Positions 2,908-36,250 of a stretch of DNA of 64,000 nt are shown here, piece after piece (positions within the stretch are counted from its first letter, which is position 1; each line of letters begins with the position of its first letter). The stretch covers positions 1 through 64,000 of the forward strand of contig NZ_CP068393.1 in assembly GCF_018128945.1 (NCBI RefSeq), read 5' to 3'. The position numbers and the translations under genes were made by a program. The notes beneath the pieces are model-generated. The model made no database searches. It saw nothing but the letters and a program-made list of their open reading frames with translations, and was not told where the DNA came from. The stretch comes from Aristaeella hokkaidonensis (GTDB taxonomy: Bacteria > Bacillota > Clostridia > Christensenellales > Aristaeellaceae).

Positions 2908-4137
2908 ATGGCGAAAACGTTCCAGACTAACAAAAAAGCAATCCGGCTCAGCCTTGCCATCCTCGCCGGACTGATTCTAGGCGCACTCTTTGGACTGGTG
3001 ATGCCGGATTGGGCAGAACCGGTAACAAGTTTCATCAGCACAGTTTACCTTCATGGACTGACTATGATGATTTATCCGCTGGTTTTCTGCTCCCTCATCG
3101 TGGGTATCAAGGGAATCGGCAGCGTATCAGCAACCGGCAAAGTGGGCGGACAGGCGTTACTGTATTTTATCGGTACTACGCTGTTCGCCAGCCTTCTGGG
3201 TCTTTTTCTGCCTAAGGCGCTGAATATCGGCGCAGGAGTGGCGGTGGAAATGGCGGAGGCGGAGGTACAGGCCGCGGAGTTTACCAGCGTTCTGGACACA
3301 CTCAAAAACCTGATTCCTGCCAATCCTTTTGCGTCTTTTGCCAACGGAAACATGCTTCAGGTGCTGGCTTTTGCGATTATCATCGGCATTACCTGCCTGG
3401 TACTTGGCCCGAAAGCAGAGCCTTTTGTAAAACTGTGTGAAGCTGTGGACCAGATTTCCGTGAAGATTATTTCTGCTGTGATGTATACGACGCCCCTGGG
3501 TGTGTTCTGCTCACTGGCGGGTACTGTTCATGTGAACGGACTGCAGACAATTCTGTCGCTGGCCGCAGTGCTTGGCGCACTGTATCTTGTGATGCTTCTG
3601 TATATTGTGATTGTGTACGGCCTGGTTCTGGTGAAGGGAATCGGAAAATTCAGTCTTCGCCGTTTCTTCGTTACGGCGCTTCCGGCAGCGCTGAATGCTT
3701 TCGGGACAGCGTCTTCTTCCGCAACGCTGCCGATCAGCAAACGCTGCGCAGATGAAATGGACGTGCCGAACGAGATCTCCTCCCTGGCTTTGCCGCTGGG
3801 CGCAACGATTAATATGGACGCTGTGTCCATTGTGATGTCTTTCATGATCGTGTTTTTTGCCAACGCAACCGGAACAGATCTTCCATACGGACTGCTTGCA
3901 GTGGTGCTGCTGAGCAATACACTGCTGAGCATCGGTGCGCCGGGCGTGCCGAACAGCGCCATTGCTTCCTTTGCCGCACTGGCGGCCATTGCAGGGCTGC
4001 CGGCCGGTATCATGGGGATGTATGTGAGCGTCAATATTCTTGTGGACGCCGGCGCAACCTGCTGCAATGTGCTGGGTGACATCGCCAGCGCGGTTGCAAT
4101 GAAACGAACCTGCAGACTGCCGGGCTCGGAAAACTGA
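2908..4137 (+). CDS. Dicarboxylate/amino acid:cation symporter (DAACS family)
   Basis: A hydrophobic protein of about 409 residues of the glutamate/aspartate/serine symporter family (SLC1-like; GltP, SstT), importing an acidic or small neutral amino acid with Na+ or H+. Family signatures are the serine-rich re-entrant loop TASSSATLP and the PLGATINMD motif that coordinates substrate and cation. AAGGAG at 2893-2898 with 9-nt spacing selects the ATG at 2908 over an in-frame ATG at 2887. It lies 75 bp after metY on the same strand, so serine or aspartate uptake feeding sulfur amino-acid synthesis is possible but unproven. Substrate specificity cannot be read from the sequence. Confidence 0.88.
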   Translation: MAKTFQTNKKAIRLSLAILAGLILGALFGLVMPDWAEPVTSFISTVYLHGLTMMIYPLVFCSLIVGIKGIGSVSATGKVGGQALLYFIGTTLFASLLGLFLPKALNIGAGVAVEMAEAEVQAAEFTSVLDTLKNLIPANPFASFANGNMLQVLAFAIIIGITCLVLGPKAEPFVKLCEAVDQISVKIISAVMYTTPLGVFCSLAGTVHVNGLQTILSLAAVLGALYLVMLLYIVIVYGLVLVKGIGKFSLRRFFVTALPAALNAFGTASSSATLPISKRCADEMDVPNEISSLALPLGATINMDAVSIVMSFMIVFFANATGTDLPYGLLAVVLLSNTLLSIGAPGVPNSAIASFAALAAIAGLPAGIMGMYVSVNILVDAGATCCNVLGDIASAVAMKRTCRLPGSEN

Positions 4138-12203: not shown

Positions 12204-14072
12204 ATGTGCGGAATAGTGGGTTATACGGGACATGTTCAGGCGGCACCGATCCTGCTGGATGGACTGGCAAGACTGGAATACCGGGGCTATGACTCGGCCG
12301 GACTGGCTGTACGTGACGGAACGGCGCCGGCGGAAGTTGTAAAAGCCACCGGCAAGCTGTATCACCTGGCCGATAAAACAGACCAGGGGCGCGCACTGCC
12401 CGGCAACTGCGGTATCGGCCATACGCGGTGGGCAACCCACGGAGACCCCAGCATGGTGAACGCGCATCCGCATGTGAGCGGCAACTGCACAGGTTCCGGA
12501 TGCGGACCGGTGGAGAGCGACGTGGTGGGCGTACATAACGGCATCATTGAAAACTTCACGGAACTGAAGGAAAAACTGCTGCGTCATGATTATGCTTTCT
12601 ACAGTGACACCGACACTGAAGTGGCAGTAAAACTGGTGGATTACTACTATAAAAAATATAAGATCGGTCCGGTGGACGCCATTACCCGGGCTATGGTCCG
12701 GATCCGGGGCAGTTATGCCCTGGCGCTCATGTTCAAGGATTATCCGGATGAGATCTTTGTGGCCCGGAAGGATTCCCCGCTGGTAATCGGCACGGCAGAC
12801 GGCGCTTCCTATCTTGCATCGGACGTACCAGCGATCCTGAAATACACACGGAACGTATATTACATTGATAATTTGCAGGTCGGACGGATCAGTGCCGGCA
12901 GTGTGAAATTCTATGACCTGAACGGAGACGAGATTCAGCTGCCGCTGACCGAGATCACCTGGGATGCCGCAGCGGCGGAAAAGGATGGATATGAGCATTT
13001 CATGCTCAAGGAAATCCATGAGCAGCCCAAGGCGGTCAGGGATACGCTGAACAGCCTGGTGAAGGACGGAAAGATTACCCTGGAAGAGACCGGCCTGACT
13101 GACGATATGCTCCGGCAGGTCAGCCGGGTGGATATCGTGGCCTGTGGCTCCGCATGGCATGTGGGTATGGCTTCACAGTACGTCATCGAGGATCTGGTGA
13201 AAGTTCCTGTGCGGGTGGAGCTGGCCTCCGAATACCGGTACCGCAGCATTCCCGTGGCACCGGATACGCTGGTGATTGTCATTTCCCAGAGCGGTGAAAC
13301 CGCGGACAGCCTGGCGGCTTTGCGTGTGGCCAAGGAACGGGGAGCCATGACGCTGGCAGTGGTCAATGTGATCGGATCCACCATTGCGCGGGAGGCAGAT
13401 CATACGCTGTATACGCTGGCCGGGCCGGAAATCGCCGTGGCAACCACCAAGGCTTACAGCGCCCAGCTGATTGCCATGGACGTGCTGGCGGTGAAGATGG
13501 CGGCGGTTAAAGAGCAGATTACGGAAGAGCAGGTAGCCGGGTTCCTGGAAGCGCTGAATGCGATTCCGGAGCAGATCGGCCGGGTGCTGGAAGAAAAGCA
13601 GCGGCTGCAGTGGTTCTCCTCCAAGATCGCAAATACGCATGATATTTTCTTCATCGGCCGCGGGCTGGACTACGCGATCAGCCTGGAAGGCAGCCTGAAG
13701 ATGAAAGAGATCAGCTATATTCATTCCGAGGCTTATGCGGCAGGCGAGCTGAAACATGGAACGATCAGCCTGATTGAACAGAACACCCTGGTGATCGGCG
13801 TGCTGACACAGGGCAGCCTGTTTGAAAAGACACTGTCGAATATGCTGGAGTGCAAGAGCCGCGGCGCATACCTGATGGGTGTGACCACGAATGGCAATTT
13901 CTCCGTGGAGGACTCCGTGAACTTTACGGTTTATGTACCGAAGACGGACGAACACTTTATCGCGTCGCTGGCCATTGTTCCCCTGCAGCTGCTGGGTTAC
14001 TACACCAGCGTGAACAGGGGCCTGGACGTGGATAAGCCGAGGAACCTGGCAAAGAGCGTCACGGTTGAATGA
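12204..14072 (+). CDS. glmS: Glutamine-fructose-6-phosphate aminotransferase
   Basis: This 622-residue enzyme makes glucosamine-6-phosphate from fructose-6-phosphate and glutamine, the first step of UDP-GlcNAc and peptidoglycan synthesis. The N-terminal class II glutaminase begins MCGIVGYTG with catalytic Cys2 and has the ARLEYRGYDSAGLA and GIGHTRWATHG motifs. Two SIS sugar-isomerase domains follow (VACGSAWHVG and ISQSGETADSLAAL in the first; FFIGRGLDYAISLEGSLKMKEISYIHSEA in the second). It ends KPRNLAKSVTVE as expected. AAGGAG is about 11 nt upstream. No glmS ribozyme consensus is seen in the leader. Confidence 0.97.
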   Translation: MCGIVGYTGHVQAAPILLDGLARLEYRGYDSAGLAVRDGTAPAEVVKATGKLYHLADKTDQGRALPGNCGIGHTRWATHGDPSMVNAHPHVSGNCTGSGCGPVESDVVGVHNGIIENFTELKEKLLRHDYAFYSDTDTEVAVKLVDYYYKKYKIGPVDAITRAMVRIRGSYALALMFKDYPDEIFVARKDSPLVIGTADGASYLASDVPAILKYTRNVYYIDNLQVGRISAGSVKFYDLNGDEIQLPLTEITWDAAAAEKDGYEHFMLKEIHEQPKAVRDTLNSLVKDGKITLEETGLTDDMLRQVSRVDIVACGSAWHVGMASQYVIEDLVKVPVRVELASEYRYRSIPVAPDTLVIVISQSGETADSLAALRVAKERGAMTLAVVNVIGSTIAREADHTLYTLAGPEIAVATTKAYSAQLIAMDVLAVKMAAVKEQITEEQVAGFLEALNAIPEQIGRVLEEKQRLQWFSSKIANTHDIFFIGRGLDYAISLEGSLKMKEISYIHSEAYAAGELKHGTISLIEQNTLVIGVLTQGSLFEKTLSNMLECKSRGAYLMGVTTNGNFSVEDSVNFTVYVPKTDEHFIASLAIVPLQLLGYYTSVNRGLDVDKPRNLAKSVTVE

Positions 14073-14086
14073 TAAAGAATGAAATC

Positions 14087-14184
14087 AATCCGCTTTGCGG
14101 ATTTGTGAAATATTGAGCCGCAGTGCGGCACAATGTGAAATGCTGCTTCGCAACATGAAATATTCGCCTTATGGCGAATGTTTT
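14087..14184. repeat. Hairpin array with TGAAATAT linkers
   Basis: Four successive small hairpins: AATCCGC/GCGGATT (14087-14103), GCCGC/GCGGC (14117-14129), an imperfect TGC/GCA hairpin, and ATTCGCC/GGCGAAT (14162-14179). They are joined by TGTGAAAT or ATGAAATAT. Stems differ in sequence but each pairs with itself. The last is followed by GTTTTA and may terminate glmS. Confidence 0.65.
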
Positions 14185-14256
14185 AGTTGGTTATAAAACA
14201 GATATATTCCCGAATGGGATTATGGACAGGGACAGAATAGTGCAGAGGTGGAAAGT

Positions 14257-15855
14257 ATGACGAAGTATATTTTTGTTACCGGCGGTGTGGTTTCTGGTCT
14301 GGGCAAAGGCATTACGGCAGCTTCCCTGGGACGGCTGCTGAAGGCAAGAGGGATAAAAGTTGCGGCCCAGAAGCTGGATCCGTATATCAATACGGACCCC
14401 GGAACCATGAGTCCTTATCAGCATGGTGAAGTGTACGTGACCGAAGACGGTGCGGAAACCGATCTGGACCTGGGCCATTATGAGCGGTTCATTGATGAGG
14501 ATCTGAACAAGTACTCCAACCTGACCACCGGCAAAGTATACGCAAACGTCATCCAGAAGGAGCGGCAGGGAGGATACCTTGGCTCCACAGTGCAGACGAT
14601 TCCCCATATTACTGATGAAATCAAACGGTTTATTTACCGGGTCGGTGAAAAGACCGACGCAGACGTCGTTATTACTGAGATCGGCGGTACAATCGGCGAT
14701 ATTGAAAGCCAGCCCTTCCTTGAGGCGATCCGAGAGGTTGGCCTGGAAGTGGGCCGGGACAACGCATGTTATATCCATGTGACGCTGGTGCCCTACCTGA
14801 AGGCCAGCGGAGAGCATAAGTCCAAGCCCACCCAGCACAGCGTGAAGGAACTGCAGGGCATGGGTATCAGCCCCAACGTCATCGTGCTGCGGGCGGATGA
14901 GAAGATCACGGACGAAACGATCTTCACCAAGATTGCCCACTTCTGCAACGTGAAAGATGACTGCGTGATTGAAAACACCACGCTGCCGACGCTGTATGCG
15001 GCTCCGTTGATGCTTGAAAAGGCCGGCCTGGCTGCCGTGGTCTGCCGTGAGCTGGGTCTGAAGAGCCCGGCACCGGACCTGAAGGACTGGGAAGACCTGG
15101 TGGAACGGATCGGCCATCAGACCCGGAAGGTGAAAATCGGCCTGGTGGGCAAATACGTGCAGCTGCACGACGCTTATCTGTCTGTGGCAGAAGCCCTGCG
15201 CCATGCCGGATATGCCCAGGACGTGAAGGTTGAAATTGACTGGATTGACTCTGAACGGCTGACAGAAGAAACTGCCGAGGAAATCCTGAGCCCGCTGCAG
15301 GGCATCATTGTGCCCGGCGGCTTTGGAGGACGCGGTATTGAAGGGATGATCCTGGCAGCCCGCTGGGCCCGGGAACACCATGTGCCGTATTTCGGCATCT
15401 GCCTGGGTATGCAGGTGGCGGTCATCGAATTCGCACGGAACGCAGCCGGAATGGAAGGCGCAAACTCCCGTGAGTTTGACGAGAACGCTCCGTACCGGGT
15501 GATTGACTTCATGCCGGGACAGAATGACGAAATTGACAAGGGCGGCACCCTGCGTCTGGGCAGGTATCCCTGCATGCTGGAAGAAGGCACTGTAATCGCA
15601 AAGTGCTATGGAGAAACCCGGATCGGTGAACGCCACCGCCACCGTTATGAATTCGCGAATGAGTACCGTGAAGCGCTGCAGAACGCCGGCCTTTGCCTCT
15701 CCGGCCTTTCTCCGGACGGACGGCTGGTGGAGACCGTGGAGATTTCCGATGAGGACTTCTTCGTGGGTGTTCAGTTCCATCCGGAATTCAAGAGCCGGCC
15801 GAACAAGCCGCACCCGCTGTTCATGGGATTCATCGGGGCCGCAAGCAAACGCTGA
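14257..15855 (+). CDS. pyrG: CTP synthase
   Basis: The 532-residue enzyme aminates UTP to CTP with ATP and glutamine. The synthase domain opens [29 protein letters not shown], with the P-loop and then [20 protein letters not shown] and [11 protein letters not shown]. The class I glutaminase domain carries the nucleophile at about C382 in GICLGMQ and the late [15 protein letters not shown] selects the ATG at 14257 over an in-frame GTG at 14248. The upstream gap is a hairpin array rather than the reiterative-transcription leader known from Bacillus pyrG. Confidence 0.97.
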
Positions 15856-28557: not shown

Positions 28558-29907
28558 ATGATGAAGAACCGTAAATTCCAGATTGCCCTGATTATATTCT
28601 CCCTTACCGGCCAGATTGCCTGGGTCGTGGAGAATATGTATTTCAACGTGTTCATCTATAAGATGTTCCGGGCTTCCGCGTCGGATATTGCCCTGATGGT
28701 TACTGCCAGCGCGATCGCGGCGACGCTGACCACCATCCTGATGGGCGCCCTGTCCGACCGGATCGGGAAACGAAAAATCTTTATGTGTGCCGGATACATT
28801 GCCTGGGGTATCTCCATTATCTCGTTTGCCCTGATCCGGACAGACGTAATTTCCTCCCTGTTCGGCATGGTGACCGGTGCGGCAACCGTCGGAATCACGC
28901 TGACCATTATCATGGACTGCGTGATGACCTTCTTCGGATCCACGGCGAATGACGCCGCCTACAATGCCTGGCTGACAGACTCCACAGACGCCACCAACCG
29001 CGGGGCGGCCGAAGGCATCAACTCCATGATGCCCCTGATCTCCATTCTTGTGGTGTTTGGCGGATTCATGGGCTTTGACCTGGATCAGGCTTCCAGCTGG
29101 ACTGCCATATACTGCATTATCGGCGGGCTGGTCCTGCTGATCGGAATCCTGGGTTTCTTCCTGGTGGATGAAGCCCCGGTCAGGAATCCGGACAGCCTGG
29201 GCTACTTTGCCACAATCCTGTACGGGTTTCGCCCGGCGGTGATCCGGAAAAATGCCGTGCTGTATTTTTCCATGGCGGCCTTCATTATTTTCAACATCTC
29301 CATTCAGATTTACATGCCCTACCTGATTATCTACTATGAGCAGACGCTGGGTATGGCGGACTACGTGCTGATTATGGCGCCGGCTATTATCCTGGCCGCG
29401 GCTGTGACCTTCTTCTTCGGCAGGCTGATTGACCGTTTTGGATTCCGAAAGACAGTCCTTCCGGCTCTGTTCCTGCTGGCGCTGGGTTTTGTCCTGCTGT
29501 GGCTGGTGCCTTCTGTGATTCAGGCCGAGGGTATGGCGATGAAAATACCGGTGTTTATCGGCTCCTTCCTGATGATGTCCGGCTACCTGAGCGGCATGGC
29601 CGCATACGGCACACAGCTGCGCAACTATACCCCTGAACACATGGCAGGCCGTTTCCAGGGACTTCGGATCCTTTCGCAGGTGCTGATTCCCGGCATCATC
29701 GGTCCGCAGATCGGCGCATGGGTACTCCGGGACGCGCCGACCATTTCCAACAGCGATGGAACAACCTCTTTCCTGCCAAGTGCGGATATCTTCCTGACGG
29801 CGCTGATTGTCCTGCTTATTCTGATTGCGGTACTGTCCGCCTGGCTGCTTCATAACAAAAACGGTGTGGAAGGCTCTGCATCAATGGAACTCCGGGGGGA
29901 CAGATGA
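28558..29907 (+). CDS. MFS transporter
   Basis: A 449-residue major facilitator protein with twelve predicted helices. Motif A, GALSDRIGKRKIF, lies between helices 2 and 3 and a second copy, GRLIDRFGFRKT, follows the central loop. AGAGGTG selects the ATG at 28558; 28561 is equally possible. It lies 28 bp after the GH2 gene and overlaps the next ABC gene by 4 bp. It probably imports the glycoside used by the GH2 enzyme, an inference from neighbourhood only. Confidence 0.85.
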   Translation: MMKNRKFQIALIIFSLTGQIAWVVENMYFNVFIYKMFRASASDIALMVTASAIAATLTTILMGALSDRIGKRKIFMCAGYIAWGISIISFALIRTDVISSLFGMVTGAATVGITLTIIMDCVMTFFGSTANDAAYNAWLTDSTDATNRGAAEGINSMMPLISILVVFGGFMGFDLDQASSWTAIYCIIGGLVLLIGILGFFLVDEAPVRNPDSLGYFATILYGFRPAVIRKNAVLYFSMAAFIIFNISIQIYMPYLIIYYEQTLGMADYVLIMAPAIILAAAVTFFFGRLIDRFGFRKTVLPALFLLALGFVLLWLVPSVIQAEGMAMKIPVFIGSFLMMSGYLSGMAAYGTQLRNYTPEHMAGRFQGLRILSQVLIPGIIGPQIGAWVLRDAPTISNSDGTTSFLPSADIFLTALIVLLILIAVLSAWLLHNKNGVEGSASMELRGDR

Positions 29908-31670
29908 AGTTTCTTTGGAAGTATCTGAAAAAGTATCAATGGATGATCCTGATCGGTATGGGACTGAAGCTGGCCGGAACGCTGACCGAGCTTCTGATTC
30001 CCTATGTGATGGAACATCTGCTGGACCATGTGGTGCCGCAAAAGGAGACGGCGCCGGTTTTGCTGTGGGGCGGGGCGATGATCCTGCTGGCCTGTGTGGT
30101 TCGGTTCCTGAATGTGACGGCAAACAAGAAAGCGGTGTGGATTGCCAAGGAAAGTATTTTTACCATCCGGCGGGACTTGTTCCATTCAGCACTGAACCTG
30201 TCCGGAGGGCAAACAGATGAGATTGGCCTGCCTTCCCTGATTTCCAGGATGACCTCTGACACGTACAATGTGCAGAATTTTATCCGGGCTGCCCAGACGC
30301 TGGGTATCCGGGCGCCGATCATGCTGATCGGAGGTATCGTCATTACGCTGACTATGGATACAGGCCTGGCGCTGATTCTGTGCATCATGGCGCCGATTAT
30401 GATCGGCCTGGTGGTGTTTATCTCTTTCAAGGGCATTCCGCTGTATGATATGGTGCAGCGGGGGATGGACGATATTGTGCGCATCATGCGGGAAAACATC
30501 TCCGGAATCCGGGTGGTGAAGGCGCTTTCCAAGGAACCCTTTGAGATGCGGCGCTTTGGAGAGGCAAATGATACGACTTCCCGGCGGGATATCAAGGCAA
30601 GTATCATTATGGCACTGCCGGGCCCGGTGGTAACGCTGTTCCTGAATATCGGCCTGACACTGATTGTTTTTATCGGCGCAAAACGGGTGAACGCGGGCGT
30701 GACCCAGCCCGGTGTGATCCTGGCCTTCCTGACATACTTCAATATGATCCTGATGGGCGTAATGGGCCTGAACCGCGTGTTCCTGATGCTCTCCAAGGCT
30801 AATGCTTCCGCGGCCCGTATCGCTGAGGCAACAGAGCAGCAGGAAGACCTGGCTGTACTGCCGGCAGAGAAAGGCGCCGCAACGGAGCGGGAGGGTCACA
30901 TTGTTTTTGATCATGTAACCTTCAGTTATGCGGGGAACGGGGAGAACGCAGCGCAGAACTCTGCGGCTTTTGCGGGATCTTCCAGGCAGCAGTGCCTGAA
31001 GGACGTGGATTTCACGATCCGGAAGGGTGGATCCCTGGGCATTATCGGCGCCACGGGAAGCGGAAAAACCACGATCATCAACCTGCTGATGCGTTTTTAC
31101 GATCCCGGGGAAGGGCATGTGTTCATTGACGGACAGGACGTTCGTACGATGGACCGGGATGCCCTGCGCCGCCGGTTCGGCACGGTGTTCCAGAATGATA
31201 CGATCTTTGCCTCCAGCATCCGGGAGAATGTGGTATTCGGCCGGAACGTGGATGAGGAGCGGCTGCAGGAAGCCCTGGGAGATGCCATGGCAGCTGATTT
31301 TGTCAACCGGTATGAGGACGGGGCTGACCACATGGCAGCAATTCACGGCGGCAATTTCTCCGGCGGACAGAAGCAGCGGCTGCTGATTGCCCGGGCCGTG
31401 GCGGCGAAACCGGATATCCTGATCCTGGACGATTCCTCCTCCGCACTGGATTACCGGACGGATGCCGAATTGCGAAAAGCCATCAGCAGCCGGTACACCG
31501 GAACGACACTGATCGTCATTGCGCAGCGGGTTTCTTCCATCATGAACCTGGATGAAATCATTGTGCTGGATGAAGGAGAAATGATCGGCAAGGGAACGCA
31601 TGAGGAACTGATGCGTGAATGCCCGGTTTACCGGGAGATCCAGCAAACCCAGATGGGGGAGGTGGAATAA
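29904..31670 (+). CDS. Heterodimeric ABC exporter half A (degenerate ATP site)
   Basis: A 588-residue half-transporter: six-helix type I exporter domain (residues about 10-300) and nucleotide-binding domain (about 330-588). Walker A is GATGSGKTT and the signature FSGGQKQR is intact. Walker B ends LILDD, with Asp replacing the catalytic Glu, and the H-loop histidine is Gln (VIAQRVSS). This is the usual pattern for the non-catalytic half of heterodimeric exporters such as BmrC/BmrD. The start overlaps the MFS stop. A short insertion (ENAAQNSAAFAGSSRQQ) lies just before the P-loop region. Confidence 0.9.
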   Translation: MKFLWKYLKKYQWMILIGMGLKLAGTLTELLIPYVMEHLLDHVVPQKETAPVLLWGGAMILLACVVRFLNVTANKKAVWIAKESIFTIRRDLFHSALNLSGGQTDEIGLPSLISRMTSDTYNVQNFIRAAQTLGIRAPIMLIGGIVITLTMDTGLALILCIMAPIMIGLVVFISFKGIPLYDMVQRGMDDIVRIMRENISGIRVVKALSKEPFEMRRFGEANDTTSRRDIKASIIMALPGPVVTLFLNIGLTLIVFIGAKRVNAGVTQPGVILAFLTYFNMILMGVMGLNRVFLMLSKANASAARIAEATEQQEDLAVLPAEKGAATEREGHIVFDHVTFSYAGNGENAAQNSAAFAGSSRQQCLKDVDFTIRKGGSLGIIGATGSGKTTIINLLMRFYDPGEGHVFIDGQDVRTMDRDALRRRFGTVFQNDTIFASSIRENVVFGRNVDEERLQEALGDAMAADFVNRYEDGADHMAAIHGGNFSGGQKQRLLIARAVAAKPDILILDDSSSALDYRTDAELRKAISSRYTGTTLIVIAQRVSSIMNLDEIIVLDEGEMIGKGTHEELMRECPVYREIQQTQMGEVE

Positions 31671-33439
31671 TGGCCAACAGAGATTCCATTATGACCAAAC
31701 CCAAGGACTCAAAGGGAGCCTTTATGCGCCTGCTGTCCTACCTGGGCGCGTTCAAAGCACTGATCCTGCTGGTGGCGGTGCTGTGTCTGATCAGCAATGT
31801 ACTGAGCCTGTGGGGACCGACGCTGGCCGGATCCGCGATTAATGAGGCGGCGGCAGGAATAAACAAGGTGAACTTCGAAAAGGTCGCCTACTATGCGGTC
31901 CGGATGCTGGCAGTATACGTGAGCTCTTCCCTGATCACCATCCTGATTCATATGATTATGGTGAATGTTTCCAAACGTGTGGGCCGGAAGATGCGGCAGG
32001 ATGTGTTTGACAAGCTGATGCGGCTGCCGGTGGGCTTTTTTGACCGGAACCAGGCGGGAGATATCATCAGCCGGGTATCCTATGACGTGGACGTAATCAG
32101 CACCTGTATGGCCACGGATGTGGTGGCAATCCTGACCAGTGTGGTGACGGTAGCCGGCGCGCTGATCATGATGGTCCGGATATCCCCGGTACTGAGCCTG
32201 GTGACGCTGGTAACGGTGCCTGCTTCCATCGTGTTCACCGCCCACATGCGAAAGAAGACCCAGCCCCGGTTTGTGAAACGGTCCAGGTCCTACGGAGCGA
32301 TGAACGGATTTGTGGAAGAGCAGCTGTCCGGGCAGAAGACCATCCAGGCCTATGCCTATGAGGACCAGATTGACGATAAATATGAGGATATCAACCACCA
32401 GGCCGCGGAAGCGTATTATGACGCGGATTCCCTGGCGGCAACCATCGGTCCGACGATCGGCTTTATCAACAATATCGGCCTGAGCCTGATCACCCTGCTG
32501 GGATCGGTGCTGTATATGAACGGGGCCATCGGGTTGGGAAACATCTCTTCTTTTGTGCTGTATTCCCGGAAATTTTCCGGTCCGATCAACGAAGTAGCGA
32601 ACATCATCAACGAACTCTTCTCCGCACTGGCGGCGGCGGAACGGGTATTCGGCCTGCTGGATCAGCCGGAAGAACTGAAGGATGCAGAGGGTGCCCGGAC
32701 GCTGACGGACGTGGAAGGCAACGTGGCGCTGAATAAGGTGTCCTTTGGTTATGACCCGGACCGGACCATTATCCACGATCTTTCCATGCGGGCGGATGCA
32801 GGAAAGCTGACGGCTATCGTAGGCCCTACCGGCGCCGGCAAAACAACGATCATCAACCTGTTGATGCGTTTTTACGACGTGGACAGCGGCAGCGTGACCG
32901 TGGACGGACAGGACGTAAGGGAGCTGACCCGGAGAAGCCTGCGGTCTGCTTATGCCATGGTGCTGCAGGACACCTGGGTGTTCCGGGGCACGATCTTTGA
33001 CAATATAGCCTACGGCAAGGAAAACGCCACGATGGATGAGGTGGTGGCCGCGGCGAAGGCCGCCCATATCCATCCGTTTATCATGCGGCTGCCGGAAGGA
33101 TACCAGACAGTAATCAGCGAGGACGGCGGCAACATTTCGAAGGGACAGAAGCAGCTGCTGACGATCGCCCGGGCAATGCTGTATACCTCCAATATGCTGA
33201 TCCTGGATGAGGCAACCTCCAACGTGGATACTTCCACAGAACGGGAGATCCAGCGGGCTATGCGAAAGCTGATGACAGGGCGGACGTGCTTTGTAATCGC
33301 CCACCGGCTATCCACAATCCGGAACGCTGACAATATCCTGGTAGTAAACCAGGGAGACGTTGTGGAGCAAGGGACGCACGACGAACTGATGCAGGCGCGG
33401 GGGTTCTACTATCGTCTGTACCGTGCGCAGTTTGAATAA
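31670..33439 (+). CDS. Heterodimeric ABC exporter half B (catalytic)
   Basis: The 589-residue partner has six membrane helices and a complete catalytic NBD: Walker A GPTGAGKTT, Walker B MLILDEATSNVD with the catalytic Glu, and H-loop VIAHRLSTI. Its signature motif is altered (ISKGQKQL for LSGGQ). With half A the two make one active and one degenerate site. The ATG overlaps the half A stop (TAATG), preceded by GGGGGAGG, so translation is coupled. Substrate is probably a drug, lipid or peptide. Confidence 0.9.
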   Translation: MANRDSIMTKPKDSKGAFMRLLSYLGAFKALILLVAVLCLISNVLSLWGPTLAGSAINEAAAGINKVNFEKVAYYAVRMLAVYVSSSLITILIHMIMVNVSKRVGRKMRQDVFDKLMRLPVGFFDRNQAGDIISRVSYDVDVISTCMATDVVAILTSVVTVAGALIMMVRISPVLSLVTLVTVPASIVFTAHMRKKTQPRFVKRSRSYGAMNGFVEEQLSGQKTIQAYAYEDQIDDKYEDINHQAAEAYYDADSLAATIGPTIGFINNIGLSLITLLGSVLYMNGAIGLGNISSFVLYSRKFSGPINEVANIINELFSALAAAERVFGLLDQPEELKDAEGARTLTDVEGNVALNKVSFGYDPDRTIIHDLSMRADAGKLTAIVGPTGAGKTTIINLLMRFYDVDSGSVTVDGQDVRELTRRSLRSAYAMVLQDTWVFRGTIFDNIAYGKENATMDEVVAAAKAAHIHPFIMRLPEGYQTVISEDGGNISKGQKQLLTIARAMLYTSNMLILDEATSNVDTSTEREIQRAMRKLMTGRTCFVIAHRLSTIRNADNILVVNQGDVVEQGTHDELMQARGFYYRLYRAQFE

Positions 33440-33446
33440 AAAATGC

Positions 33447-33475
33447 TTGACATGTGTCTTTTGGTAAGTTATAGT
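33447..33475 (+). promoter_or_regulatory. Consensus promoter of the leader/rsgA unit
   Basis: TTGACA (33447-33452), exactly 17 bp, TATAGT (33470-33475). It begins 8 bp after the ABC stop codon and predicts a transcript start near 33482. Confidence 0.85.
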
Positions 33476-33508
33476 GATCACAATTAAAAAAGAAAGGAGG
33501 TTCTTCGC

Positions 33509-33613
33509 ATGGTTAACTTCATGAATGTAAAACGGTTTACAGCCACCGTTAAAACTGTAAAACACATCCGTAATGGCAATACATCTGACCATACGAAGAA
33601 CCAACCGGAATAA
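33509..33613 (+). CDS. Leader ORF, 34 aa
   Basis: A 34-codon ORF begins 8 nt after a near-perfect AAAGGAGG. The peptide is basic (MVNFMNVKRFTATVKTVKHI and onward) with no recognised motif. It fills the structured leader between promoter and terminator, and its two ends pair with each other as RNA. It is best read as a regulatory leader peptide, though a short functional peptide is possible. Confidence 0.55.
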   Translation: MVNFMNVKRFTATVKTVKHIRNGNTSDHTKNQPE

Positions 33614-33641
33614 CTTCCGGCGCCTGTTTTCATATGATCGG

Positions 33642-33672
33642 CCGCTTGTCCATAACGGATAAGCGGTTTTTT
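33642..33672 (+). terminator. Attenuator-like terminator before rsgA
   Basis: A 10-bp stem with one G-U pair (33642-33651 with 33657-33666), loop ATAAC, then six T. It sits between the leader ORF and the downstream tiny ORFs and rsgA, with no other clear promoter after it, so expression of rsgA should need readthrough. Confidence 0.8.
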
Positions 33673-33705
33673 GCTGCGTAAAAAAGAATACAGGGGGTGG
33701 TCGGG

Positions 33706-33840
33706 ATGATCTATATAACGTACGGAGATATCCCGGAAGACAATCAGGAAACAAGCAATGAAACTGCATGTACCGGTACCTTTGGAGAGATGGGCTTCAG
33801 GTGCTGTGAACAGGACAGAACAAACGAAGAAAGGAGATAA
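33706..33840 (+). CDS. Small ORF, 44 aa, unknown
   Basis: A 44-codon acidic ORF with a GGGGGTGG site 6 nt upstream. It contains three cysteines, including a CC pair (FRCCEQD). The stop is 6 bp before the next ORF start and its end supplies that ORF's Shine-Dalgarno (AAAGGAG). No homologue recognised. Confidence 0.45.
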   Translation: MIYITYGDIPEDNQETSNETACTGTFGEMGFRCCEQDRTNEERR

Positions 33841-33846
33841 AAGACA

Positions 33847-34137
33847 ATGGTTTTTGACAGGAATACAGTTTTTGCACTGACAGAAAAAAGCAAAAAAGGA
33901 CAGGAACCGGAGCAGATGAGCCGGTATACTGCCAACGTTACAGAAAAAGCAGAAGAGACTCGCGGGAGGGGGTATCTGAATACCCGAAGGAAGCCGCGCC
34001 GCAAAAGGAAGGAATATTTATGGAAAAGAATATACAGATACATGAAATGCTGCCCGGGAATCTGTACGCCGGCAATCTCTGGCAGAAGGAAATGGTGGAA
34101 AACACAATACTCCGGCGTGATGAGCCTTACTATATGA
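33847..34137 (+). CDS. Small basic ORF, up to 96 aa, unknown
   Basis: The start follows AAAGGAG by 10 nt. The first about 58 residues look plausible and become strongly basic (RRKPRRKRK). The remainder overlaps the next ORF in another frame and may be out-of-frame readthrough, so the ancestral gene may have been shorter. No family recognised. Confidence 0.4.
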   Translation: MVFDRNTVFALTEKSKKGQEPEQMSRYTANVTEKAEETRGRGYLNTRRKPRRKRKEYLWKRIYRYMKCCPGICTPAISGRRKWWKTQYSGVMSLTI

Positions 34138-34280
34138 CCGTTTCCGGTGAGACTTTCTACACCGGAAATGAGGGAGAACCCGTGGAAAAGAAGATCCGCA
34201 GGGGCTTTTTCAGCCGGATTTTCCGGCGGGAAACCAAACAAAAGGAGAGGATAAGCGTTTGGAAGAAAAGTATCGCGTAA
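34020..34280 (+). CDS. Small ORF, 86 aa, unknown
   Basis: The start follows AAGGAAGG by 7 nt. The protein has an acidic aromatic middle (RRDEPYYMTVSGETFYTG) and a basic tail. It overlaps the preceding ORF by 118 bp and the rsgA start by 22 bp, consistent with a translationally coupled chain of tiny ORFs. Function unknown. Confidence 0.5.
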   Translation: MEKNIQIHEMLPGNLYAGNLWQKEMVENTILRRDEPYYMTVSGETFYTGNEGEPVEKKIRRGFFSRIFRRETKQKERISVWKKSIA

Positions 34281-35251
34281 TCCTGGTCCACAGGGACCGA
34301 TACCTGGTCAGGAACGGGGCAAAAGAGCTTTACTGCGTGCTGACCGGGAGCCTGCGATACCGTGATGAATATCCGGTTGCGGGCGATTATGTGGAAATTA
34401 CGGAGAATCCGTTCGGCGACAGCCTGATCCGGGCGATCCTGCCCCGGCGGACGGTGTTTTACCGTCCGGACCGGGGCGGGCACGCTGACGGATTCGCAAA
34501 AACCATTCAGGTGCAGCCGCTGATCGCCAATATGGATTATGTGTTTATTATCACATCCCTGAACCAGGATTTCAGCCTGAACCGGATCGCACGATATGCT
34601 TCCATGATAACGGCCGGAGGCGCTGTGCCGGTGGCCGTGCTGACCAAGGCAGACCAGTGTGCGGACGTTGAAGAAAAGGAACGGGAAACCGCCGCGCTGA
34701 GCGGGCAGATGGAGGCGGTGGCGGTAAGTTCCTATACAGGCTTTGGACTGGAACGGCTGCAGAAGTATTTTATCCCAGGAACGACGATTGCCCTGCTGGG
34801 TTCTTCCGGCGCGGGGAAATCCACCCTGATCAATACGCTGGCCGGGGAGGAGGTTATGCGCACCGGGGAGATCCGGGAGGCTGACTCCAAGGGAAGGCAT
34901 ACGACCACACACCGGGAAATCATCGAAATCAACGGAGTGAGCTTTATAGACACCCCCGGACTGCGGGAACTGGGGATGGTTGCGGCAGAGGAAGGCATCA
35001 GCGGTACATTCACTGATATAGCCGAACTGATCAGCCAGTGTGCTTTCTCAGACTGTACCCACCGCAGCGAACCAGGATGCGCTGTTCGTAATGCGTTGGC
35101 GGACGGCACGCTTTCTCCCGAACGCTGGGAACTGTACAATCGCCTTGAACAGGAAAACAGCTGGAGCAAGATCAAAAAGAATGAAAAGATGATGAATATT
35201 GCCATGGATAAGCGAAAACAACGGAAACACAGCGAATGGAAGGAGAGATGA
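34259..35251 (+). CDS. rsgA: Ribosome small-subunit GTPase RsgA (paralogue-type)
   Basis: The 330-residue circularly permuted GTPase has an N-terminal OB fold (about 1-80), then G4-like VLTKAD, G1 GSSGAGKSTL and G3 DTPGLRELG, and a C-terminal zinc knuckle C-x4-C-x-H-x5-C (CAFSDCTHRSEPGC) followed by a basic helix. RsgA assists 30S maturation and binds h44. TTG start chosen for AAAGGAG with about 10-nt spacing. It is not next to the usual prpC/prkC/rpe genes but follows a leader/terminator and precedes a kinase-like gene, so it may be an accessory copy tied to antibiotic or translation stress. Confidence 0.9.
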   Translation: MEEKYRVILVHRDRYLVRNGAKELYCVLTGSLRYRDEYPVAGDYVEITENPFGDSLIRAILPRRTVFYRPDRGGHADGFAKTIQVQPLIANMDYVFIITSLNQDFSLNRIARYASMITAGGAVPVAVLTKADQCADVEEKERETAALSGQMEAVAVSSYTGFGLERLQKYFIPGTTIALLGSSGAGKSTLINTLAGEEVMRTGEIREADSKGRHTTTHREIIEINGVSFIDTPGLRELGMVAAEEGISGTFTDIAELISQCAFSDCTHRSEPGCAVRNALADGTLSPERWELYNRLEQENSWSKIKKNEKMMNIAMDKRKQRKHSEWKER

Positions 35252-35254
35252 TTA

Positions 35255-36250
35255 TTGAAGAGCATTGAAGAACAAGCGGTCATTTTATACGCACTGGAGA
35301 ACTGTGAAATCAAACCATTCCCCGGACATCCGGGTGGACGGAACCGTATCCTGATCTGCTGCCGGAACGGGGAAAAGAAATATATACTCCGCATATCGGA
35401 ATTGGGCGACCGGACCGGAGAGGATTACCTGGCAGAAACGGAATTCGTCCACTACCTGGCCCGGAACGGGGCACCGGTGGCGGATGTGATACCATCTGTT
35501 CACGGCAGGATGGTTGAATGCGTTGAGAAGGATGGACAGAAGATCTATCTCAGCCTGTTTGCCTACGCAAAAGGAATGCTGCTGTGTGACAATGGCTACC
35601 GTTACCGGGAGGGAGCACCTCTTGAAGAATACTTCTATAACACCGGCAAGGCGCTCGGTGTGATCCACAGGTTGTCCAGGGAGTTCAAACCGGTGCACCG
35701 GCGCCCGGAATTCTTTGATAAATACAACCGGGATTATATTGACCGCCTGATTCCGGATTCCTATGCGGAACTGAAGGATGCCATTAACAGACGGCTGGAT
35801 GAATACGGGAAACTGCCCATGGACGCGGGGAACTACGGGCTGATTCATTTCGATTTCTGCGACGGGAATTACCATGTGGACATGAATACCGGCGATATTA
35901 CTGTGTTCGATTTTGACAACTGTATTTACTGCTGGTATATGTTCGACCTGGCTCACGTCTGGACTCACGGCGTCGGCTGGTTCCGGAATGAGCCGGATCC
36001 GAAGAAACGCATGGCATATATGAAATGGTACTTTGATACAGTGCTTGAGGGCTACAGAAGCGAAACGGACGTATCCGAGGAGATGCTGGAGAAGCTTCCC
36101 CTGTTCATTGACATGACGCTGATCGAATTCATTGTTGATGAGTTTGAATGCTGCGAACGGGAAGGGGAAGAACCGGAGGAGGAAGACATCGGGGAGACAG
36201 CGGAATGCCTGATCCACGATATTCCTTATGCGGGTTTCGGGGAAGAATAA
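35255..36250 (+). CDS. Phosphotransferase of the APH/choline kinase superfamily
   Basis: A 331-residue kinase-fold protein. The Brenner motif IHFDFCDGNYH (near residue 199) and the metal-binding VFDFDNC (near 221) are clear. The N-lobe with KKYILRIS carries the ATP-binding lysine. The length and acidic C-terminus resemble homoserine-kinase/SrkA-like members rather than known resistance enzymes. TTG start with AGGAGAG, 3 bp after rsgA, so co-transcribed. Substrate unknown; small-molecule or protein phosphorylation are both possible. Confidence 0.8.
   Translation: MKSIEEQAVILYALENCEIKPFPGHPGGRNRILICCRNGEKKYILRISELGDRTGEDYLAETEFVHYLARNGAPVADVIPSVHGRMVECVEKDGQKIYLSLFAYAKGMLLCDNGYRYREGAPLEEYFYNTGKALGVIHRLSREFKPVHRRPEFFDKYNRDYIDRLIPDSYAELKDAINRRLDEYGKLPMDAGNYGLIHFDFCDGNYHVDMNTGDITVFDFDNCIYCWYMFDLAHVWTHGVGWFRNEPDPKKRMAYMKWYFDTVLEGYRSETDVSEEMLEKLPLFIDMTLIEFIVDEFECCEREGEEPEEEDIGETAECLIHDIPYAGFGEE

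Follow-up and report, generated by a model that had tools for sequence, protein, structure and literature searches.

The closest described counterparts of the leader reported here are attenuators that work through a short upstream open reading frame (uORF); what we say of them holds for the portions of the cited papers on which we draw. At vmlR of Bacillus subtilis, drugs that stall initiating ribosomes on a uORF lying inside an anti-antiterminator hairpin let an antiterminator form, in competition with an intrinsic terminator (PMC9226507). At hflXr/rli80 of Listeria monocytogenes, an accessory ribosome-associated GTPase is controlled by a uORF attenuator that again combines anti-antiterminator, antiterminator and terminator (PMC6310831). 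The bmrB leader of bmrCD attenuates transcription by way of the ribosome and is induced by ribosome-targeting drugs (PMC4191407), and toiL, the uORF of topAI-yjhQ in E. coli, senses several drug classes (PMC12121999). In the WblC/WhiB7 regulon of Actinobacteria, uORF attenuation stands over acyltransferase-type genes and the ribosome-associated GTPase HflX (PMC7157823).

The leader that concerns us lies in the window—the whole stretch of 64,000 nucleotides of Aristaeella hokkaidonensis DNA that was analysed—and it shares features with each of these systems. Like vmlR, it has a uORF within a putative anti-antiterminator hairpin and a predicted antiterminator set against an intrinsic terminator; like hflXr, it would have the same trio of structures, with an accessory ribosome-associated GTPase behind it; like toiL, it is built around a uORF; like bmrB, it would be an instance of ribosome-mediated attenuation; and, like the WblC/WhiB7 regulon, its family would serve acyltransferase-type genes and a ribosome-associated GTPase. 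The differences are as instructive. The vmlR uORF has three codons (MIN), its target is an ABC-F protein and its Shine-Dalgarno (SD) sequence is sequestered by a hairpin, as far as the cited account describes it (PMC9226507), whereas the uORFs of this family have 27–39 codons, with the uORF's own SD and start codon as the 5' arm of the helix and its end as the 3' arm, and occur in at least seven copies in one genome. The target at hflXr is HflX, not RsgA, and the 14-codon uORF there has an RLR motif (PMC6310831), which the window peptide lacks. The bmrB terminator lies inside the leader ORF and its target is an ABC exporter (PMC4191407); in the window an ABC exporter pair is found upstream of the leader, not behind it. 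In the WblC/WhiB7 system a single transcription factor is attenuated (PMC7157823), whereas here each operon has its own copy of the attenuator. What is new is the probable attenuator family, distributed in cis through the genus and counting an accessory ribosome-assembly GTPase among its targets; the mechanism itself is of a known kind. A search of openly licensed papers, at the level of listings, found no rsgA attenuator and no such leader family, which is not proof of absence.

The features of the locus are as follows, with the basis of each in brackets.

29904..33439, + strand: two ABC exporter genes, immediately ahead of the promoter (ORF list; second gene scanned with Pfam/NCBIfam)
33447..33475, + strand: sigma-70 type promoter, TTGACA-17-TATAGT (consensus scan, 11/12 positions matched)
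33495..33500, + strand: SD of the leader ORF, AGGAGG (read from the sequence)
33499..33512, + strand: 5' arm of helix P1, GGTTCTTCGCATGG, overlapping the SD end and the start codon (sequence, folding, leader alignment)
33509..33613, + strand: leader ORF (uORF) of 34 codons, 34 aa, MVNFMNVKRFTATVKTVKHIRNGNTSDHTKNQPE (ORF list, relatives, frame-preserving gaps)
33566..33576, + strand: upstream arm of the antiterminator, ATCCGTAATGG, within the uORF (pairing and folding computations)
33589..33602, + strand: 3' arm of P1, CCATACGAAGAACC, at the end of the uORF (sequence, folding, leader alignment)
33605..33620, + strand: hairpin whose loop contains the stop codon of the uORF (sequence scan, alignment of 17 leaders)
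33640..33672, + strand: intrinsic terminator, with its apex, 33650–33660, the partner of the antiterminator arm (terminator scan, leader alignment)
33706..33840, + strand: 44-codon remnant of the SAM methyltransferase (ORF list, comparison with relatives)
33847..34280, + strand: overlapping small ORFs, 33847–34137 and 34020–34280, with no Pfam/NCBIfam match (counterparts between methyltransferase and rsgA in A. lactis)
34259..35251, + strand: accessory RsgA-like GTPase, the second RsgA of the genome (PF03193, 3.1e-42; TIGR00157)
35255..36250, + strand: kinase of the APH fold (PF01636, 1.3e-22)

An earlier, sequence-only reading had placed the promoter, the 34-codon ORF, P1, the stop-codon hairpin and the terminator, and on direct inspection all of its coordinates are right. 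The P1 arms pair at 13 of 14 positions, as it had claimed, and none of 40 shuffled uORFs attains the P1 of the window. To these elements we add the pairing of ATCCGTAATGG with the terminator apex, CCATAACGGAT (10/11 paired), the remnant of a methyltransferase gene that separates the leader from rsgA, and the further copies of the element discussed below. For the segment 33482–33672 the computed folding energy is −59.3 kcal/mol; 200 shuffles average −37.8 (sd 4.0), which places the segment at z −5.4, and not one of them is as low. By themselves the promoter scan (three found, 2.4 expected) and the terminator scan (five found, 3.0 expected, sd 1.5) do not exceed expectation; the two calls are credible because they are conserved, and a similar promoter layout can be seen ahead of the full-length leader copies inspected. 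The layout is that of attenuators of the vmlR/hflXr type: a short ORF with its SD lies between promoter and terminator; an intrinsic terminator precedes the first gene (17/17 aligned rows); and, by computation, an antiterminator overlaps the terminator, significantly so over the groups described below and not in every element. From 33672 to the start of rsgA, where a + strand promoter would have made the leader irrelevant, the consensus scan detected none.

Conservation bears on all of this. In an alignment of 17 leaders, window included (the set of 53 elements used for folding omits two of its rows: L003, which hardly differs from L001, and L023, which a contig end truncates), the pairing and the terminator are both retained in 17/17, and 100% of the cells of P1 helix 2 and of the terminator are paired; loss of either in relatives is what the sequence-only reading had said would count against it. 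Each of the three helices contains a compensated pair, and cells changed on both sides number 13, against 5.5 in shuffles (0/500 as high). Pairs with two-sided change (3 versus 2.4 in shuffles) and further pair types (11 versus 11.5) are not exceptional, and 8 of the 11 pairs of P1 helix 2 are invariant. Gaps within the uORF are multiples of three, and single-base gaps appear after its stop codon. Pooled pN/pS of the uORF is 0.63 in the window family, 0.43 in another family and 1.23 in one set of three. Because the gaps keep the frame and pN/pS is 0.63, we infer that the uORF is translated.

One stretch of the peptide, IRxGxVSDHxKxxPE at the C-terminus, is largely conserved in the methyltransferase/rsgA family, and this, with the pN/pS of 0.63, is what might be expected if a conserved nascent peptide sensed a particular drug late in the uORF, as in arrest of the Erm/MsrDL type. 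We think this unlikely. The same stretch contains the antiterminator arm and the 3' arm of P1, so RNA pairing can explain its conservation; the peptides differ from copy to copy; and a stall at the end of the uORF would cover the very arm that the antiterminator requires.

Whether the three pairings exceed chance was asked of 11 single-linkage groups, each represented by one element in the permutation and shuffle tests. P1 arms pair better with their own partners than with permuted ones (−18.7 versus −15.7 kcal/mol; 99/20000 permutations as low), as do uORF ends with their own terminator apices (−15.4 versus −11.3 kcal/mol; 0/20000), and for the 5' arm 9/20000 permutations are as low as its own pairing. 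An earlier test with 12 groups was weaker, the own partner surpassing 90% of others' in 6/12 for P1 and in 8/12 and 7/12 for two definitions of the antiterminator. Across the 11 groups the antiterminator has 12.5 expected pairs; shuffling the uORFs lowers this to 8.0 (Wilcoxon p 0.002) and swapping the terminators to 8.3 (p 0.001). P1 has 12.4 expected pairs, and 6.5 when the uORFs are shuffled (p 0.007). Taken singly, four of the 11 representatives (L084, the window, L134 and L151) have a P1 reached by no more than 1/40 shuffles, and four (the window, L083, L145 and L138) an antiterminator reached by no more than 2/40; P1 is no better than shuffles in L086 (29/40 match) and L149 (19/40), nor is the antiterminator in L137 (18/40). 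The pairings are thus beyond chance when averaged over the family, and not for each element. Nor are the arms always in the same place: the antiterminator arm of the window family occupies a different part of the uORF from the one used by several other groups, and in some copies the 3' arm of P1 is itself the antiterminator arm, as in the L086 leader, where ATATCCGGCAGG pairs either with the SD and start codon or with the terminator apex.

Folding was carried out on 53 elements, among which near-identical rows remain (L124 and L125, for example), as transcripts ending 10 nt before the end of the terminator and in four states: naked, or with a ribosome at the start codon, at codon 6 or at the stop codon. 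(L127, whose uORF runs into the terminator, was left out of these tests, as were L092, L105 and L174; the elements of L118, L120, L122, L127 and L086 were delimited by hand.) Naked RNA of the window forms 14.9 P1 pairs and 2.7 antiterminator pairs; with a ribosome at the start, or at codon 6, the antiterminator has 12.8; with one at the stop it has none, by construction, as the uORF is then masked, and the terminator starts to form. Averaged over the 53 elements, naked RNA has 9.0 P1 and 9.7 antiterminator pairs, and a ribosome at the start brings the antiterminator to 12.8, with at least eight pairs in 52/53. P1 reaches eight pairs in 32/53 naked elements; 39/53 still have at least eight antiterminator-type pairs when naked and 14/53 have fewer. 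In the window family the naked RNA has at least eight P1 pairs in 12/15 and fewer than eight antiterminator-type pairs in 5/15, the window among them. P1 clearly excludes the antiterminator in the window, therefore, and within its family does so in only 5/15.

The complete terminator dominates, on average, in every ribosome state. Since the finished terminator wins thermodynamically, the switch must be kinetic, depending on the order in which its parts emerge. That the finished terminator is the favored fold could also be read as a constitutive leader whose leaky terminator merely lowers basal expression, or as an RNA that binds a protein or ligand and has no use for the ribosome; the window leader has no Rfam match at the gathering threshold (three matches fall below it, E 0.5 to 6), which leaves room for a ligand. 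Pairing with the start codon, gaps that preserve the frame and, across groups, antiterminators that match their own terminators are not expected of such a leader, however, and we regard it as very unlikely.

We favor, and consider probable, the reading of the leader as a transcription attenuator that acts through the ribosome and can adopt three alternative pairings, akin to those of vmlR and hflXr. In the absence of a ribosome, the SD and start codon would pair with the end of the uORF as P1; this would hold the antiterminator arm away from its partner, so that the terminator forms and turns the operon off. Were the uORF translated to its stop codon, the ribosome would lie over the antiterminator arm, and the terminator would again form. 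A ribosome held at the start codon, or within the first six or so codons, would instead have its footprint over the 5' arm of P1; the uORF would then be free to pair with the apex of the emerging terminator, termination would be missed, and the operon would be transcribed. This on-state position, from start codon to about codon six, is deduced from the modeled footprint. We infer, likewise, how fast the parts would form, what would induce the switch and what its products would do: the likely signal would be a ribosome-targeting drug, or another stress that halts initiation or early elongation. The sequence-only reading had ribosomes switching the element by melting the long stem. P1 is better read as an anti-antiterminator, and complete translation alone would not turn the gene on. 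Its broader suggestion, of a uORF attenuator that reports ribosome status as those of ABC-F genes do, is in keeping with the conservation, with indels that preserve the frame and with the three pairings; that antibiotics are what is sensed is a prediction by analogy.

Amino-acid attenuators of the trp/ilv type have the same arrangement of uORF, antiterminator and terminator, but their ribosomes stall at regulatory codons for want of charged tRNA. Some single copies of our family are indeed rich in one residue, such as Tyr in the L086 leader. By inspection, however, no run of a single residue is common to the peptides of the copies, nor does the window uORF have one in its opening codons, at which the stall would have to occur; and the genes examined behind the leaders encode methyltransferases, GNATs and similar proteins, not enzymes of amino-acid biosynthesis. 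An explanation of this kind seems quite unlikely.

What would the attenuator control? The sequence-only reading took rsgA, together with the kinase gene behind it, to be the target. Relatives contain a fuller operon: leader, SAM methyltransferase, accessory RsgA, APH-fold kinase. In A. lactis a class I SAM methyltransferase comes directly after the leader, and in the window the ORF at 33706–33840 resembles the N-terminal extension of this methyltransferase at its start and its C-terminus at its end: it is what an in-frame internal loss left behind. Intact methyltransferases occur in 13 of 45 genus genomes (protein search; 72–100% identical over most of the query), and the leader is directly upstream of all 13, cut at the contig end in L023. 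A target limited to rsgA is accordingly rejected, the methyltransferase coming first wherever it is intact and other copies of the leader heading other operons. The leader is real and conserved and is likely an attenuator, with rsgA one member of the operon and not the sole target.

A DNA search with the leader gave matches in 11 of 41 genomes; in six, one of which is the window genome, the match spans almost all of the query. Six genomes (G001, G023, G008, G018, G049 and G060) keep the leader without an intact methyltransferase and amount to five genome groups, which may not all be independent. The leaders of G001 and G023 are 99–100% identical to the window's; in G049 and G018 the leader stands before rsgA; and in G060 it precedes the APH-fold gene, with remnants of methyltransferase and rsgA. 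Upstream, the second ABC exporter gene also adjoins the leader in L006, L050 and L104.

We also surveyed 27 methyltransferase loci from named records, a set that shares members with the genus genomes and in which many entries are titled as rumen or other ruminant-gut genomes. RsgA was found by tblastn in 11 (in one, L057, as a 36-residue stretch) and an APH-fold gene in seven. A script found the family leader peptide in 12/27; neither the script nor the covariance model described below found a family leader in the other 15, and the methyltransferase therefore also occurs independently of the leader. A role in rRNA methylation was considered, and most of the nearest solved structures and folds listed belong to methyltransferases that act on small molecules or to proteins without an assigned function; RlmA is among them, as a weak match (E 0.00056). 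The PADLOC matches were all weak and covered parts of domains.

A covariance model built from the aligned leaders (R1) matches 26 of 45 genus genomes, with up to six matches per genome, and leaves 19 without; some weak matches are short and look like terminator alone, one such being the sole match of G006. The window genome (3.39 Mb) has at least seven copies, six found by R1 and one by pattern. R1 missed the seventh under stricter filters and gives it 35 bits in a small search, so R1 counts are lower bounds. A wider distribution was also looked for. Among 398 genomes of the phylum R1 matched only the window genome and, weakly and in part, one other (24 bits, G335); among 297 of the order, it matched four Aristaeella genomes and made four weak hits outside the genus, where the 500 bases inspected of each contain a hairpin and no such leader. 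Plasmids yielded no real match, only one short hit at E 0.7.

Forty stretches around R1 matches were fetched and 45 matches inspected in all; six short or partial ones (the second match of L131, and L152–L156) were excluded from the family tests and gene counts, leaving 39 loci. The first ORF of at least 90 aa belongs to a methyltransferase, GNAT or nitroreductase family in 27/39 of these, and one of the first two does in 33/39, with labels assigned by Pfam to representatives and spread through BLAST clusters; the loci include close orthologs and are not 39 independent events. These enzyme operons look like drug-modifying or stress genes. The GNAT background of the window genome is high, with 94 domain matches in its 3.39 Mb, many of them in runs, such as those outside the window at 389–434 kb, 490–493 kb, 1510–1544 kb and 3374–3384 kb. 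In L083, L122, L134 and L136 the leader precedes a conserved small protein of 106–108 aa, which has no Pfam match in the two scanned (L083 and L134).

The RsgA behind the window leader has a GTPase domain and a Cys/His motif near its C-terminus, as an RsgA should, and matches solved RsgA structures (best 6h4d, 6.3e-31). The genome contains two RsgA proteins above the family cut-off, 30% identical to one another; by inspection, both retain the GTPase motifs and the Cys/His motif. The other lies next to genes presumed to encode a PASTA-like repeat protein and a ribulose-phosphate epimerase-like enzyme, which is the setting of the canonical rsgA in Firmicutes. Tentatively, and as a conjecture that may well fail in one part or the other, we propose that Aristaeella possesses a stress regulon without a transcription factor: a self-pairing uORF attenuator responsive to halted initiation, which duplication has placed ahead of at least seven operons in a single genome (those for methyltransferases, GNATs, hydrolases, and RsgA plus APH-fold kinase), with the accessory RsgA a drug-tolerance version of the 30S assembly factor, as HflXr is of HflX. 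If so, rumen bacteria would have a genus-wide, cis-distributed counterpart of the WhiB7 regulon, and a set of uncharacterized enzymes—methyltransferase, GNAT, accessory RsgA and APH-fold kinase—would be made when initiation of translation fails. Since the start site of each uORF itself forms the sensor arm and the peptide varies from copy to copy, natural variants within the family could also be used to test how far uORF sensing depends on the peptide and how far on ribosome position.

Two other leaders were noticed along the way. At five of the 15 methyltransferase loci that lack the family leader, four from Lachnospiraceae (L070, L072, L074 and L075) and one, L071, from an uncultured bacterium, inspection shows a short leader ORF of another kind (e.g. 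MRNMAVTVNGRVCKR), no more than a few hundred bases ahead of the start of the methyltransferase at 4001; in several, a GGGAGGG/CCCTCC pairing spans the stop codon, and this is possibly an independent translation-responsive leader. In the window itself, a Gut-1 RNA (RF01706, 54.1 bits) lies at 14077–14166 on the + strand, between ORFs 12204–14072 and 14248–15855, which we presume from their sequences to be glmS-like and CTP-synthase-like, respectively.
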